DNA from: a virus
Reading direction: 5' to 3' (one strand)
IMG/VR virus record: IMGVR_UViG_3300021168_000045
Location: 1-48,165 of that record
DNA length: 48,165 nt
Each line of letters opens with the position of its first letter. Position 1 is the first letter of the stretch. The position numbers and the translations under genes are program-made. The notes beneath the pieces were generated by a model. It worked only from the letters and a program-made list of their open reading frames with translations. It did no database searches and was not told where the DNA came from. Of the stretch, positions 238 through 48,165 are shown piece by piece.

Positions 238-266
238 TTGACAACGGTCCCAGAGGGACCGATAAT
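238..266 (+). promoter_or_regulatory. promoter P1 with palindromic spacer
   Basis: TTGACA (238-243), 17 bases, then GATAAT (261-266), a near-consensus sigma70-type promoter. The spacer is almost entirely the palindrome CGGTCCC-AGA-GGGACCG (245-261), with a 7-bp arm and a 3-base centre. Expected transcription start is near 273, leaving about 40 nt before the ATG at 315. Because the palindrome lies upstream of the start it would act as DNA, most simply as an operator; that is inference. Compare 2262-2290 and 6499-6527. Confidence 0.8.
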
Positions 267-2239: not shown

Positions 2240-2261
2240 GAAAAAATGTACGAAAGTAACC

Positions 2262-2290
2262 TTGACAACTTTCGTTCGAAAGGTTACTCT
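2262..2290 (+). promoter_or_regulatory. promoter P2 with palindromic spacer
   Basis: A perfect TTGACA (2262-2267), a 17-base spacer and TACTCT (2285-2290). The spacer contains the inverted repeat CTTTCG-TT-CGAAAG (2269-2282), centred between the two boxes. Just upstream CGAAAGTAACC repeats part of the same motif. Expected start is near 2297, which makes an ATG at 2299 almost leaderless and favours the start at 2350 for the downstream gene. The -10 box is weak, so activation or repression by a spacer-binding protein is plausible. Confidence 0.7.
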
Positions 2291-6442: not shown

Positions 6443-6498
6443 ATCCTAGGCTCAGTGACGGGGGTATCTGATAGCAGAGAAAGACCTTACAAGACACT

Positions 6499-6527
6499 TG
6501 ACAAGGGGGTATACCCCCTGTACCCTA
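6499..6527 (+). promoter_or_regulatory. promoter P3 with perfect palindromic spacer
   Basis: TTGACA (6499-6504), 17 bases, TACCCT (6522-6527). The first 16 spacer bases are the perfect palindrome AGGGGGTATACCCCCT (6505-6520). The -10 box has the same TACyCT form as P2. Expected start is near 6534, about 50 nt before the ATG at 6586, and would transcribe the replication cluster. The symmetric spacer is the best operator candidate of the three promoters. Confidence 0.75.
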
Positions 6528-6585
6528 GGGAGAGTAGCACCCCCTGTCCCAACCGCTAACAAATTATCTAAGGACCAAGACTACC

Positions 6586-6795
6586 ATGTGGACAAAAGAA
6601 ATACCAAAAGAACCGGGGTTTTATTTCTTTAAGGAAGAAGGATATGCGCCTTCAATAGTACAGTTAGAGGCTTCACAATTTTCAAATACTTTAAAAGTAG
6701 TATTCATGGACAATACCCAAATAGAAAAATGGTCTGATTTAAACATTAAGTACTGGCTCCCCGCAATCGAATTCCCCGATAACCATGCCAAGTAA
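6586..6795 (+). CDS. small hypothetical protein, 69 aa
   Basis: The first gene after P3, with AGGA (6571-6574) 11 bases before the ATG. The pattern Trp-x3-Ile-Pro-x-Glu-Pro-Gly-Phe-Tyr near the N-terminus, a central β region and Tyr-Trp-Leu-Pro-Ala near the end resembles short phage proteins of the general DUF551-like style, which are predicted β folds of unknown role. There are no cysteines or membrane segments. It overlaps the next gene by 11 bases. Confidence 0.7.
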   Translation: MWTKEIPKEPGFYFFKEEGYAPSIVQLEASQFSNTLKVVFMDNTQIEKWSDLNIKYWLPAIEFPDNHAK

Positions 6796-6997
6796 AAAGA
6801 CCGACATTCTCTCAATTCGCATCAACGCATTCCATCGAATGATGCTACGAGTACATCCATACAAAGAAAACTCCGGTGTACTCGTAAGATTACTCTTGGA
6901 TGCTTTTTTCAAGGATGAACTTCCATTAGTCAAGATGAAGTTTATGCAAGAAGTTAATAGAAAGAACACAAATCTCAAACTAAAGAAAGGTGCGTAA
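6785..6997 (+). CDS. possible ribbon-helix-helix protein, 70 aa
   Basis: Residues 8-14 (Ile-Leu-Ser-Ile-Arg-Ile-Asn) could be the β-strand of a ribbon-helix-helix fold. Two helices around 15-24 and 30-43 and a basic tail (Lys-Lys-Gly-Ala) would follow. The size and charge suit a small DNA-binding regulator, and no other candidate transcription factor is obvious in the genome apart from the small terminase. The conserved turn is not clear, so this is a structural guess. If right, it could be one of the proteins that read the palindromic promoter spacers. Confidence 0.6.
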   Translation: MPSKKTDILSIRINAFHRMMLRVHPYKENSGVLVRLLLDAFFKDELPLVKMKFMQEVNRKNTNLKLKKGA

Positions 6998-12232: not shown

Positions 12233-13360
12233 ATGGCCACTCCATCAATAGTCCATCAATCATCAATAAATCCAAAAGGAAGCCCAAGTGCTCCGGTTTG
12301 GGTAATCATAGAACAACCATACGAACAAGACAAAGACAAAGGCTACTGCTTCTCAGGTTCCTACGGTTTCATCTTTCACAAAATGATGCTTGAAGCAGGG
12401 CTGACTGATTATTACGTATGTTCTCGTCGCCCTGAATTGACTAATCGTTCAACGTTTGCAATTCTCGAAAACGACCTAAACTACTTTAAGCCCCCAATAA
12501 TCATAACCCTTGAAGAAGCTGGGAAGCATTTCTGTAAAGAACTCGAAAAGAAAGTAATCAAAGGCGCTAAAACTGATGAAGAACATACTTCAGATATTGA
12601 AAAAATAGCAGGATCACTTTTAATATCGCCTAAATTAAATTATTCACATTATATAATACCAACTTATTCTCCACATAATATAGCAAAAGATTGGAGTATG
12701 AGAGATATTATAGTGTCTCTAGACCTAGGCAAAGCTAAAAGTGAGCTTGATTATTTTAAAAGATATGGAAATCTAGAGGCGTTGCCCATTAGAAATTTAG
12801 AAATTGATTTTGACGATTATGATAAACTATTACAGTGTTTCAAAAGATTTGAACAAGCACAATATCTATCTACAGATATTGAAACTATTTATCCGAGTAA
12901 AAAATCAATATACTGGCCTCATCCAGGCGAAGTTGTTACTGTAGGTTTAGCAGATGGTCCAGATTTTGGAATTTCTTTTGAATTATATAGAAAAGATAAA
13001 ACCGAAACACTAGATATGTGGCAAAGATTAGATAAGCTTCTGCATGATAAATTAATTATAGGTCAAAATTTTTTTAATTTTGATTTATCGAGATTTGAAG
13101 CTTATGGTTTTGATATACCATTTGAGAATATCTATGATACTTTAATTCGTCACCATATTTTGTGGCCGGAACTGAAACATGCTTTACAATTCCAAACACG
13201 ACAATATACTCGACAACCTTACTATAAGGATGAAGCACATGGTTGGTCAATTAAGAATATGAAACAATTGAAGCATTATAACTGTTTAGATGTAACAGTT
13301 ACTTATGAAATCTTTTTAAAACAAGAGGAGGAGTTTAAAGATAGACCATGGTTAATTTAG
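12233..13360 (+). CDS. UDG-like plus 3'-5' exonuclease part of a split DNA polymerase, 375 aa
   Basis: Residues 20-165 look like a uracil-DNA-glycosylase-like domain of the type that leads some phage family A polymerases (Val-Trp-Val-Ile-Ile-Glu-Gln-Pro, then Gly-Ser-Tyr-Gly). Residues 205-365 are a DEDDy exonuclease: Asp215-Ile-Glu217, Gly-Gln-Asn-x3-Phe-Asp near 280-287, and Tyr-Asn-Cys-Leu-Asp near 350. The chain ends just where the polymerase domain should begin. That domain is encoded separately at 14150-15658, after an HNH gene that starts inside this gene's last codons. From about 12590 the codons turn much more A+T-rich (AGA, ATA, TTA), marking a mosaic join near the domain border. 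Confidence 0.85.
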   Translation: MATPSIVHQSSINPKGSPSAPVWVIIEQPYEQDKDKGYCFSGSYGFIFHKMMLEAGLTDYYVCSRRPELTNRSTFAILENDLNYFKPPIIITLEEAGKHFCKELEKKVIKGAKTDEEHTSDIEKIAGSLLISPKLNYSHYIIPTYSPHNIAKDWSMRDIIVSLDLGKAKSELDYFKRYGNLEALPIRNLEIDFDDYDKLLQCFKRFEQAQYLSTDIETIYPSKKSIYWPHPGEVVTVGLADGPDFGISFELYRKDKTETLDMWQRLDKLLHDKLIIGQNFFNFDLSRFEAYGFDIPFENIYDTLIRHHILWPELKHALQFQTRQYTRQPYYKDEAHGWSIKNMKQLKHYNCLDVTVTYEIFLKQEEEFKDRPWLI

Positions 13361-13797
13361 AAATTTATAAAGAAAGATTATTGAGTAAAAGATTAATTAA
13401 TAATAATTGTTGGTTATGGCAAGGATATATAAATAATAAAGGTTACGGTACAATTCATTTTGAAAATACTCATTGCGAGGTTCATCGATTAGCATTTAGA
13501 ATATTTAGATCTAAAGAATTTAAAGAATATCTTAATGTTTGTCATAGAAATGAATGTAAAAATAGACATTGTTTTAATCCTGAGCATTTATACGCTGGTA
13601 CTCAAAAAGATAACGTAAGAGACGATATTGAAGCAGGTACTCATATAAGTTTAATGTGGAAAAATAAAACTCATTGTCCACAAGGACATGAATATACTAT
13701 AGAAAATACTTACATTGCAAAGAAAACTGGATGCCGACAATGTAAGATATGTAGAAAAAATACTAATCGTTATAATAATTTATTGAGAAGTAAATGA
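13348..13797 (+). CDS. HNH homing-type endonuclease, 149 aa
   Basis: Shows the HNH_3-type pattern: Cys-Trp-Leu-Trp near 22-25, Tyr-Gly-x-Ile near 35, Val-His-Arg-Leu-Ala near 49-53, Val-Cys-His-Arg near 69-72 and Cys-Phe-Asn-Pro-Glu-His-Leu near 79-85 for the ββα-metal core. A C-terminal zinc motif (Gly-His-x4-Glu-Asn-Thr-Tyr, Cys-x2-Cys) follows. Its ATG overlaps the end of the exonuclease gene by 13 bases, and the composition is very A+T-rich. Such genes spread by cutting alleles that lack them; this one sits at the break between the exonuclease and polymerase domains. The next gene overlaps its stop. Confidence 0.9.
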   Translation: MVNLEIYKERLLSKRLINNNCWLWQGYINNKGYGTIHFENTHCEVHRLAFRIFRSKEFKEYLNVCHRNECKNRHCFNPEHLYAGTQKDNVRDDIEAGTHISLMWKNKTHCPQGHEYTIENTYIAKKTGCRQCKICRKNTNRYNNLLRSK

Positions 13798-14000
13798 ACA
13801 TCCAACAAAAACTAAACGCATATGCACTCATATGTTTTGGCCATTACTCTGTCTACAGAGTATATGACACCCACATCGAATACAACACACGGAGTTATAA
13901 TGACTGTATCAAACAATTCTGTCGAATCGGAGTCGAATCCGCAAAAGCAAGATGTTTTGTTACCGAAAGACTTGAAAGAAGAAAGAGGGAGATATTTTAG
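13794..14000 (+). CDS. possible small basic protein, 68 aa
   Basis: The ATG at 13794 overlaps the HNH stop (ATGA), giving a 68-residue basic protein with a Tyr-rich middle, four Cys and an Arg-rich end. Its last 101 bases overlap, in another frame, a gene at 13900 that has a better ribosome site. Only one may be expressed from the shared part. No family recognised. Confidence 0.4.
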   Translation: MNIQQKLNAYALICFGHYSVYRVYDTHIEYNTRSYNDCIKQFCRIGVESAKARCFVTERLERRKREIF

Positions 14001-14172
14001 GCAGATTCTTCTACAGTTGGATTACATATCGAACCAGCCGACAATTCAACTTCAGAATAACGTAACCTCAATGCTCCGATCCGCAGGTCAGAATCTTCTT
14101 AGTTATCACCAATTAACTGAACAAAGGTTGGAGGAGCTGGAAAAAGTGAATGGAAAGCAGAATAACAAATAG
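13900..14172 (+). CDS. hypothetical helical protein, 90 aa
   Basis: The ATG at 13900 follows GGAG (13891-13894) at five bases. The first 25 residues are polar and disordered (Ser/Asn/Glu/Gln), then two or three helices with Leu and Gln follow, ending in a Lys/Asn tail. No family recognised. It overlaps the polymerase start by 23 bases, so it is probably coupled to it, and it separates the HNH gene from the polymerase domain gene. Confidence 0.65.
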   Translation: MTVSNNSVESESNPQKQDVLLPKDLKEERGRYFRQILLQLDYISNQPTIQLQNNVTSMLRSAGQNLLSYHQLTEQRLEELEKVNGKQNNK

Positions 14173-15658
14173 TTATCTTCACAAACTCCAAGCCATCTAT
14201 CACAAGATAGATGCGCGAGGTATTTGTATTGATCCTGAAAGACATAAAGAAGCACGGATTTTTATCGATCAAGAAATAACACGGAATCTTAAAATTGCAT
14301 CAGACCAATGGGGTTGTCATGTGTTTATTGGTGCAGACAATAAAGATAACTCAGAAGGCGAAGTTAACCTAAACGCCACACAGGGAGAAAAACAGCTCCT
14401 CAAGAAGCTCCAAGATCTCGGTTACAAAGTCCCGAAAATCGCTAAAAAGAACGAAGAAGGTGATTATGAATCAAAATACTCAACTGGAGAGCTTGCGCTC
14501 CAAAAAATGCTTGTCGCAAACCAATTCAACTATAGCGGAGGCGATCCAGCAATACGAGCAATATTGCAAGTACGGGAACTTGGGAAACTTAAAAGCAGTT
14601 ATTTCAATTGTAGATTGTACCGAAATACTTCGGGCAATTTGCTCTATCTCTCTAATTATAACGCGGCAGGAACAACTTCTGGACGCCGTAGTTCAAGAAA
14701 ACATACATTCGGTTATGGGAATAATGCGCAGAACTTTCCTAAACATGGAAAACTCGCAAAAACATTTCGGAGATGTTTAGTTGCTAGACCAGGGAATATA
14801 TTTTTGATGGTAGATCAAAAAAGCGCGGAAGAGTGGCCCGTTAGTGCTCTTTCGGCTAATATGAGAGCTATTAATGAAATGCTACTCGGAGTTAACCGCC
14901 ATATTCGTAGAGCTAGTTCAATCTTCGGCATTCCAGAATCTTCCAGAACTGAGAAACAATGGAAAGATTCGCTTGAGTATTACCTCGGAAAGAAAACAGG
15001 GCACGCTAATAACTACGGTATGCGTGAACGGAGAATGTCGGATTCACTTGCGCAGGAAGGTCATTCAATAAAACCGGAAGTTTGTGCGGCATTGTTGGCG
15101 AAGTTAAATCTTCTTGAACCCGAAATTGATGGAGTGTTTCATAAATATGTTAAAGACCAAATCAACACATCGAGAATACTTAGAACTCCTTTTGGTCGCG
15201 AACGTCAGTTTCTCGGCTTACGTCCTAATGACTCTAACTATAAGATATTTAATGAAGCCTATGCCTATATTCCTCAGTCTGTCGTTGGGGATAATACCGG
15301 CTTCGCTATTAGTTGCTTGGAAATGGCTAACTGTCAGCAGGTTGTACAAGAAGGCCATGATTCAATCGTTCAAGACATCGTATTGGACCCTGCTAGCATT
15401 TGGGAAAATCTCTCACGTACAGTATTGGCTTTTGATCGAGAAATTAGATTCCATAATGGGATCGTAGTTAATATTCCGATTGAAGCTGAGTTGGGATTTG
15501 ATTTTAATGAGACTGTGAAGATTAAAGATCTGAGCTACGATGGCGTATTAGAAGCATACAAGAAAATCTTGCTGATAAGAGAAGAAGAAATCGAAAAAGA
15601 AAATGAAAAAAGACAGCAACAAACTCTTCAAGACTTAGCTTCGTCGATCGGGGCATAA
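14150..15658 (+). CDS. family A DNA polymerase, polymerase domain only, 502 aa
   Basis: Carries the palm and fingers of a PolI-type polymerase. Motif A is Asp222-Gln-Lys-Ser-Ala-Glu-Glu-Trp (the metal Asp in place of the usual DYSQIE), motif B is Lys281-Lys-Thr-Gly-x4-Tyr289-Gly290, and motif C is Gly402-His403-Asp404-Ser405, where family members often have HDE. Thr-Ser-Gly-Arg-Arg-Ser near 182-188 matches the pre-motif-A primer-grip segment. There is no exonuclease in the chain; it is encoded at 12233-13360. Two proteins would have to associate to act as a replicative polymerase with proofreading. The C-terminal 40 residues are a Glu/Lys/Gln-rich helix. Confidence 0.95.
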   Translation: MESRITNSYLHKLQAIYHKIDARGICIDPERHKEARIFIDQEITRNLKIASDQWGCHVFIGADNKDNSEGEVNLNATQGEKQLLKKLQDLGYKVPKIAKKNEEGDYESKYSTGELALQKMLVANQFNYSGGDPAIRAILQVRELGKLKSSYFNCRLYRNTSGNLLYLSNYNAAGTTSGRRSSRKHTFGYGNNAQNFPKHGKLAKTFRRCLVARPGNIFLMVDQKSAEEWPVSALSANMRAINEMLLGVNRHIRRASSIFGIPESSRTEKQWKDSLEYYLGKKTGHANNYGMRERRMSDSLAQEGHSIKPEVCAALLAKLNLLEPEIDGVFHKYVKDQINTSRILRTPFGRERQFLGLRPNDSNYKIFNEAYAYIPQSVVGDNTGFAISCLEMANCQQVVQEGHDSIVQDIVLDPASIWENLSRTVLAFDREIRFHNGIVVNIPIEAELGFDFNETVKIKDLSYDGVLEAYKKILLIREEEIEKENEKRQQQTLQDLASSIGA

Positions 15659-46575: not shown

Positions 46576-46604
46576 AGTATGCTCCCTTCGGGCTGGCGTG
46601 TCAA
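46576..46604 (-). promoter_or_regulatory. late leftward promoter
   Basis: Read leftward: TTGACA (46604-46599), a 17-base spacer and CATACT (46581-46576), which has four of six -10 matches. It faces the whole structural operon. The spacer has only a 3-bp CCC-GAA-GGG inverted repeat, unlike the three rightward promoters. It is the only strong promoter-like site seen for leftward genes. Confidence 0.7.
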
Positions 46605-46851
46605 CATCCCATATATAAGGATACACCAAAATAAAACTGCACTTCGCGCGTGTATACCCCGTCCACCCGCTTTTAATTAATCTAATATCTAATACAACTA
46701 TAAATTTAAAACTAACAAGCTACTCGTGTATTTTTGTAGAAAATTTTTTAGGGAGTCCCCCGCTATTTCACGTGCTTTTCAATTTTTTAGAGGCTGGGAG
46801 TAAGTAACAGTGGGTGTTACGTTTTAGTTTAACTAGTGTTAGTTGTTAGGT

Positions 46852-47984: not shown

Positions 47985-48165
47985 TTGGGGGAAGGGTTGG
48001 TCGAGAGATTGACGCCTGATTCTAGGCGTCTTCTCTATCCTTACCCCAGCCGCCAGGGCGAAAGTAGCTAACCCCTTTAAAACCACTCTCTTCGCTCCAA
48101 CTACTCCCTGCTACATGGTATTGACGGGGGGTACCGCTGTCCCTTAATGGTATTAAAAAAAAAAA
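47985..48165. other. non-coding right end with poly(A)
   Basis: Apart from the terminator-like stem, this holds C-rich and G-rich tracts, a TTGACG (48121-48126) with CTTAAT 16 bases later that might be a weak promoter, two ATGGTATT copies (48115 and 48147), and a terminal run of 11 A. No gene is seen. Confidence 0.6.
48011..48036 (+). terminator. intrinsic terminator
   Basis: GACGCCT (48011-48017) and AGGCGTC (48024-48030) form a 7-bp stem with a 6-base loop, followed by TTCTCT. It lies about 26 bases after the stop of the last gene and should end the 47103-47984 transcript. Confidence 0.8.

Follow-up and report, generated by a model that had tools for sequence, protein, structure and literature searches.

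Palindromic promoter spacers in a family of podovirus-like phages and a putative autorepressor operator at an early promoter

The phage P22 promoter Pant, which we checked in sequence, reads TTGACA-TGATAGAAGCACTCTAC-TATATT; the annotated Arc operator (14798-14818) lies inside it, and the arc gene begins directly downstream, at 14861. MerR-type promoters have spacers of 19-20 bp, the promoters used by the virion RNA polymerase of phage N4 contain short hairpin-forming repeats in early promoter regions, and an artificial E. coli promoter regulated by cruciform extrusion was reportedly described by Horwitz and Loeb in 1988 (cited in PMC6060812). Here we compare with these systems three promoters of early genes in an uncultivated phage, in each of which a palindrome occupies the space between the promoter boxes.

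The window, by which we mean the whole stretch of 48,165 bases that was analysed (Table 1), has a podovirus-like gene content, with an SU10-type portal match, a large terminase, a family A DNA polymerase and a DUF3987 primase, and it also encodes a VWA protein and an FtsK-like ATPase. Early genes, at 1 to 17.5 kb, are oriented rightward; the late genes are oriented leftward. The DNA polymerase A (12233-15658) is divided over two ORFs, one for the exonuclease and one for the polymerase, and between them lies a small ORF that matches HNH weakly. The exonuclease ORF also has a uracil-DNA-glycosylase-like match at its N terminus. Both ends of the window carry A-runs (1-27 and 48155-48165), which may have arisen in assembly or may be a terminal feature. 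A megablast search of a public phage collection gave no matches to the first 20 kb. Relatives in IMG/VR were reached through the primase, the terminase and the FtsK-like protein; they were recovered by alignment-based scans, single-protein scans having recovered none, and their terminases are 51-73% identical to that of the window, one identical fragment excepted. When genome contigs were searched for a host, the one hit lay in a metagenome-assembled Sulfuriferula genome, on a contig that may simply be that of a phage.

Table 1. Positions of promoter, repeat and gene features in the window
Feature	Position	Strand	Sequence	Basis or remark
IMG/VR record IMGVR_UViG_3300021168_000045	1-48,165			uncultivated phage contig, 48,165 bases
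P1 promoter, N17 spacer	238..266	+	TTGACA-ACGGTCCCAGAGGGACC-GATAAT	sequence
P1 spacer dyad	245-261		CGGTCCC-AGA-GGGACCG	reaches one base into -10 box
P2 further half-site (2246), overlapping CGAAAG (2251)	2246..2256	+	ATGTACGAA	repeat search
P2 promoter, N17 spacer	2262..2290	+	TTGACA-ACTTTCGTTCGAAAGGT-TACTCT	sequence
P2 spacer dyad	2269-2282		CTTTCG-TT-CGAAAG	sequence
P3 upstream half-site	6460..6467	+	GGGGGTAT	GGGGGT/ACCCCC count
P3 -35 box	6498..6503	+	TTGACA	sequence
P3 spacer palindrome, perfect, 16 bp of 17-bp spacer; proposed operator	6504..6519	.	AGGGGGTATACCCCCT	sequence
Core inside P3 palindrome	6509-6514		GTATAC	enriched in orthologous promoters
Base between P3 palindrome and -10 box	6520		G	sequence
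Degraded second core, 11 bp after GTATAC of P3	6520-6525		GTACCC	overlaps -10 box
P3 -10 box	6521..6526	+	TACCCT	sequence
P3 downstream half-site copy	6539..6547	+	ACCCCCTGT	same 9-mer at 6513-6521
First ORF after P3, 69 aa	6586..6795	+		ORF list
70-aa ribbon-helix-helix-like protein, proposed autorepressor	6785..6997	+		family comparison
Candidate late-operon promoter	46576..46604	-	TTGACA-N17-CATACT	sequence
Sole other copy in window, intergenic, upstream of late (terminase) operon	46652..46660	+	GTATACCCC	motif search

Palindromes between the promoter boxes

P1, P2 and P3 have the same layout, with a dyad between the -35 and -10 boxes and a spacer of 17 bp in every case. A sequence-only reading of this DNA had placed a palindrome between promoter boxes at 6499-6527 and the same architecture at 238-266 and 2262-2290; both descriptions are borne out, with the coordinates of the former each lowered by one. 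Dyads with arms of at least 6 bp accompany 3 of the 23 TTGACA hexamers on the two window strands, against 0.2 expected (0.8% of all window 18-mers hold such a dyad; binomial p ~1e-3), so chance can be excluded for the window layout. The three hexamers concerned are the promoter-like ones, and they lie upstream of early genes. Each palindrome is effectively unique within the window, and a single operator common to P1, P2 and P3 was rejected on that ground. A search for RNA families gave no match.

The excess of dyads characterises the phage family. The test set consisted of 87 non-redundant TTGACA-N16-18-TANNNT sites preceded by C, 82 of them in close relatives, and the control was column shuffles that keep position-specific composition. 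Scoring of spacer dyads in relatives against shuffled controls, which the sequence-only reading had proposed, does reveal an excess: arms of at least 5 bp are present in 17 sites against 3.8 in the shuffles, and arms of at least 6 bp in 9 against 0.7, and when the window's own sites are taken away the close family still counts 15 and 7, respectively. For the 82 family promoters by themselves, dyads with arms of 5 bp or more likewise number 17, about a fifth, against roughly 4 expected. The preceding-C filter was chosen after the C preference had been noticed in the same data, and the unfiltered 147 sites are also significant (20 with dyads, 5.1 expected). Since dyads occur in 22% of spacers and at a frequency of about 4.5% elsewhere within 150-200 bp, and since there is no dyad excess at sites lacking the preceding C and a background level of dyads at 914 TTGACA hexamers lacking a -10 box, the excess is tied to likely promoters and, within them, to the spacer. 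The family dyads are centred at mid-spacer. A hexamer search anchored on the dyads found exact TTGACA in slight excess at the -35 distance and no excess of one-mismatch hexamers. Spacers serving different genes are slightly more similar within a genome (4.17) than between genomes (3.95; p=0.027), and distant primase relatives have 4 dyad promoters against 2.1 expected. The control phages lambda, T4, SPO1 and P22 (T4 and SPO1 at ~50 kb each) contain too few TTGAC promoters, and the bacterial promoter controls contain too few true promoters for a background estimate.

Palindromes turn over fast in this family and differ between promoters, which form several orthologous sets when grouped by downstream gene. 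One such set, the cluster-4 promoters, serves an 86-aa protein family, and dyads of differing sequence are retained in 8 of its 10 orthologous promoters, three of them with GNNA loops. The set includes L117 (minus, 3081), L120, G022 (28828) and G027 (minus, 15967), and its GC-rich spacer dyads vary (CGCC-GAAA-GGCG, CCGGC-ATC-GCCGG, CGCGGC-AC-GCCGCG). A model of the small protein (pLDDT 82) found no match in the PDB. For P1, the evidence is the dyad by itself. At P2, three CGAAAG half-sites fall within 32 bp and ATGTACGAA recurs nearby, at 2299, repeats that suggest a protein site. The P1 and P2 palindromes are most likely separate operators of other dimeric proteins.

The P3 promoter and the small protein downstream

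P3-type promoters of relatives lie downstream of the FtsK-like gene. Their common core, present in a subset of relatives, is GTATAC: with at most one mismatch it is found in 7 of 19 P3-type spacers and 7 of 136 other promoters (exact matches, 4 of 19 and 1 of 136), and among all 64 palindromic hexamers it is the best separator of P3-type spacers (p=2.8e-4, not corrected for the 64 tests). G026 and G006 each have two GTATAC 11 bp apart, of which the first is at mid-spacer and the other overlies the -10 box, and G005 has two GTATGC in the same placement. A clear dyad is absent from about half of the P3-type promoters. Around P3 itself, a stretch of 85 bp (6460-6544) holds four GGGGGT/ACCCCC sites, two of which make up the palindrome, and 200 Markov simulations never gave more than two such sites in 120 bp. 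In G019, where the flanks are similar to those of the window, both arms of the palindrome are one base shorter; this is one clear compensated change of the kind that the sequence-only reading had named as a check, and no others were seen. L233 and L235 are nearly identical in protein and flanking DNA; their spacers differ, yet both retain GGTGTAC/GTACACC motifs. The P3-type promoter of L235 (3300037357_000046), some 290 bases after the FtsK-like gene, also carries a perfect 10-bp inverted repeat, GGGTGTACTC-N8-GAGTACACCC, that covers the -10 box and the predicted transcription start.

Orthologues of the 70-aa protein come after nearly all P3-type promoters in the relatives; in the window, the 69-aa ORF separates P3 from this gene. 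In relatives the ATG often stands six bases after the -10 box, and the mRNA is therefore probably leaderless; the same spacing is seen in many genes of the phage family (e.g., L236 near 11153 and L240 near 3035). An iterated profile collected 30 distinct members of the protein family, with a pattern of a T-x-R-[IV] strand followed by a helix with L-V-R-x-L-L. Because the database matches are sub-threshold (Pfam RHH_1, E=0.047; PHROG Arc-like, 0.064; CopG-like, 0.082), a profile comparison of the family with P22 Arc and Mnt (hhalign) was negative, and Foldseek gave no structural match for the AlphaFold monomer (pLDDT 73; helices at 15-21, 30-42 and 47-69, none in 1-14), membership in the ribbon-helix-helix (RHH) family is something that we infer from this pattern. 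One family member gave a weak match to a TetR-repressor model (0.0042).

With a probability of roughly 0.6, we propose that the P3 palindrome is the operator of the RHH-like autorepressor encoded downstream, and that P1 and P2 have separate operators for other binders. The palindrome would serve as an operator between the boxes of an early sigma-70-type promoter; the RHH-like protein probably binds it as dimers, and the bound protein would block RNA polymerase at P3 and would thereby limit its own expression. The GTATAC core, the half-sites, the compensated change in G019 and the motifs kept by L233 and L235 all point to a sequence-specific dimeric autorepressor, possibly one that also acts on the late operon. 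The suggestion in the sequence-only reading that a protein on the spacer exerts control agrees with the P22 Arc precedent, with binding and repression being what we infer at P3; that reading's notion of separately evolved operators gains support from the spacer-specific excess, the unique palindromes and the fact that P3 has a GTATAC core and a candidate repressor gene of its own.

Upstream of the late operon, the relatives have 19 GTATAC against 8.3 expected, and in G006 and G009 tandem cores stand 11-12 bp apart. Since several other hexamers, mostly GC-rich, exceed the enrichment of GTATAC in the same region, this excess should be treated as a lead. The RHH-like protein may join the early-to-late switch because of these related sites. 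If so, a group of uncharacterised environmental podovirus-like phages would gain a testable circuit, made up of an RHH-like protein, an operator that sits in the promoter of the protein's own gene, and matching late-operon sites. Moreover, with operator and repressor seemingly diverging fast, the numerous natural promoters of the family would be useful material for studies of repressor-operator co-evolution.

Other explanations for the symmetry

The spacers could have been selected for structure, such that supercoiled DNA extrudes a hairpin or cruciform and the promoter is thereby switched, or such that a protein reads the hairpin regardless of its sequence. Repression of E. coli transcription by a cruciform has been documented (PMC6060812). 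This explanation would suit palindromes that are unlike in sequence yet placed at mid-spacer, an enrichment for perfect dyads with none for one-mismatch dyads, the cluster-4 orthologues with their differing dyads (8/10) and three GNNA loops, and loops that lean toward purines on the top strand. However, a dyad is missing from many orthologous promoters serving the same genes, the P3-type spacers have a sequence core in common, and what L233 and L235 retain is the motif and not the same palindrome. In addition, arms of 4-6 bp are short for cruciform extrusion, and central gaps of 0-2 nt are common among the dyads. On balance, we consider selection for structure to be rather unlikely as an account of the spacers, and it is unlikely that self-complementarity as such is selected in the family spacers, with unrelated perfect palindromes acting as DNA-structure switches at many early and late promoters. 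Symmetry as such had been the other suggestion of the sequence-only reading, and it is not favoured at P3, where the dyad is kept in only some orthologues and palindromes are swapped with the motif retained. Selection for a hairpin or cruciform as such is the less supported reading; at promoter groups other than P3 it may apply, and for the palindromic spacers beyond P3 function by structure would be the more interesting possibility.

Alternatively, the dyad might merely overlap the promoter and act as an RNA hairpin in read-through transcripts from upstream genes, where it would insulate, weakly terminate or protect a 3' end. Top-strand GNRA-like tetraloops in three related cluster-4 promoters would fit, as would loops that are purine-rich overall, but there is no T-run after the dyad, G.T wobble pairs are not in excess among near-dyads, the dyad excess is found in the spacer alone and not in the surrounding intergenic DNA, and P1 has no close upstream gene in the contig, all of which leaves such a role very improbable. 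It is also quite unlikely that the dyads are host-regulator operators captured by the phage, given that each promoter has a different palindrome and that turnover between close relatives is quick, even if spacer operators are ordinary in bacteria and conserved dyad spacers such as GGGGC-GTTA-GCCCC are also found in the bacterial genomes searched. The latter two facts do lower the novelty of the spacer operators proposed here. In the bacterial genomes G038, G043 and G046, conserved CTTGACA promoters carry spacer dyads, for example GGGGC-GTTA-GCCCC and AGTGT...ACACT, which are probably host operators.

Comparison with described promoters

Like the MerR-family spacer operators, the dyads described here lie between the -35 and -10 boxes; the spacers are 16-18 bp in the phage family and 17 bp in the window, against 19-20 bp in MerR-type promoters. 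Short hairpin-forming repeats in early promoters are a likeness to phage N4, with the difference that ordinary -35 and -10 boxes flank the dyad here, and no gene for an RNA polymerase was noticed in the proteins scanned. With the artificial promoter of Horwitz and Loeb, P3 has in common an inverted repeat within the promoter and control of transcription at that place, which in P3 is predicted; in the former control reportedly comes from DNA extrusion, whereas at P3 sequence conservation points to a protein site. The closest likeness is to P22 Pant, Oarc and Arc, where a TTGACA-N17 promoter, a palindromic operator in the spacer and a small gene downstream have their counterparts at P3, the repressor role of the window protein being a putative one. 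The P22 Arc operator is an imperfect dyad unrelated in sequence to the P3 palindrome, no sequence similarity between the RHH-like protein and Arc is detectable, and, unlike the Arc operator, the window site is built on a GTATAC core with arms that turn over between relatives. By analogy, P3 is most likely a variant of the arrangement known from P22 Arc.
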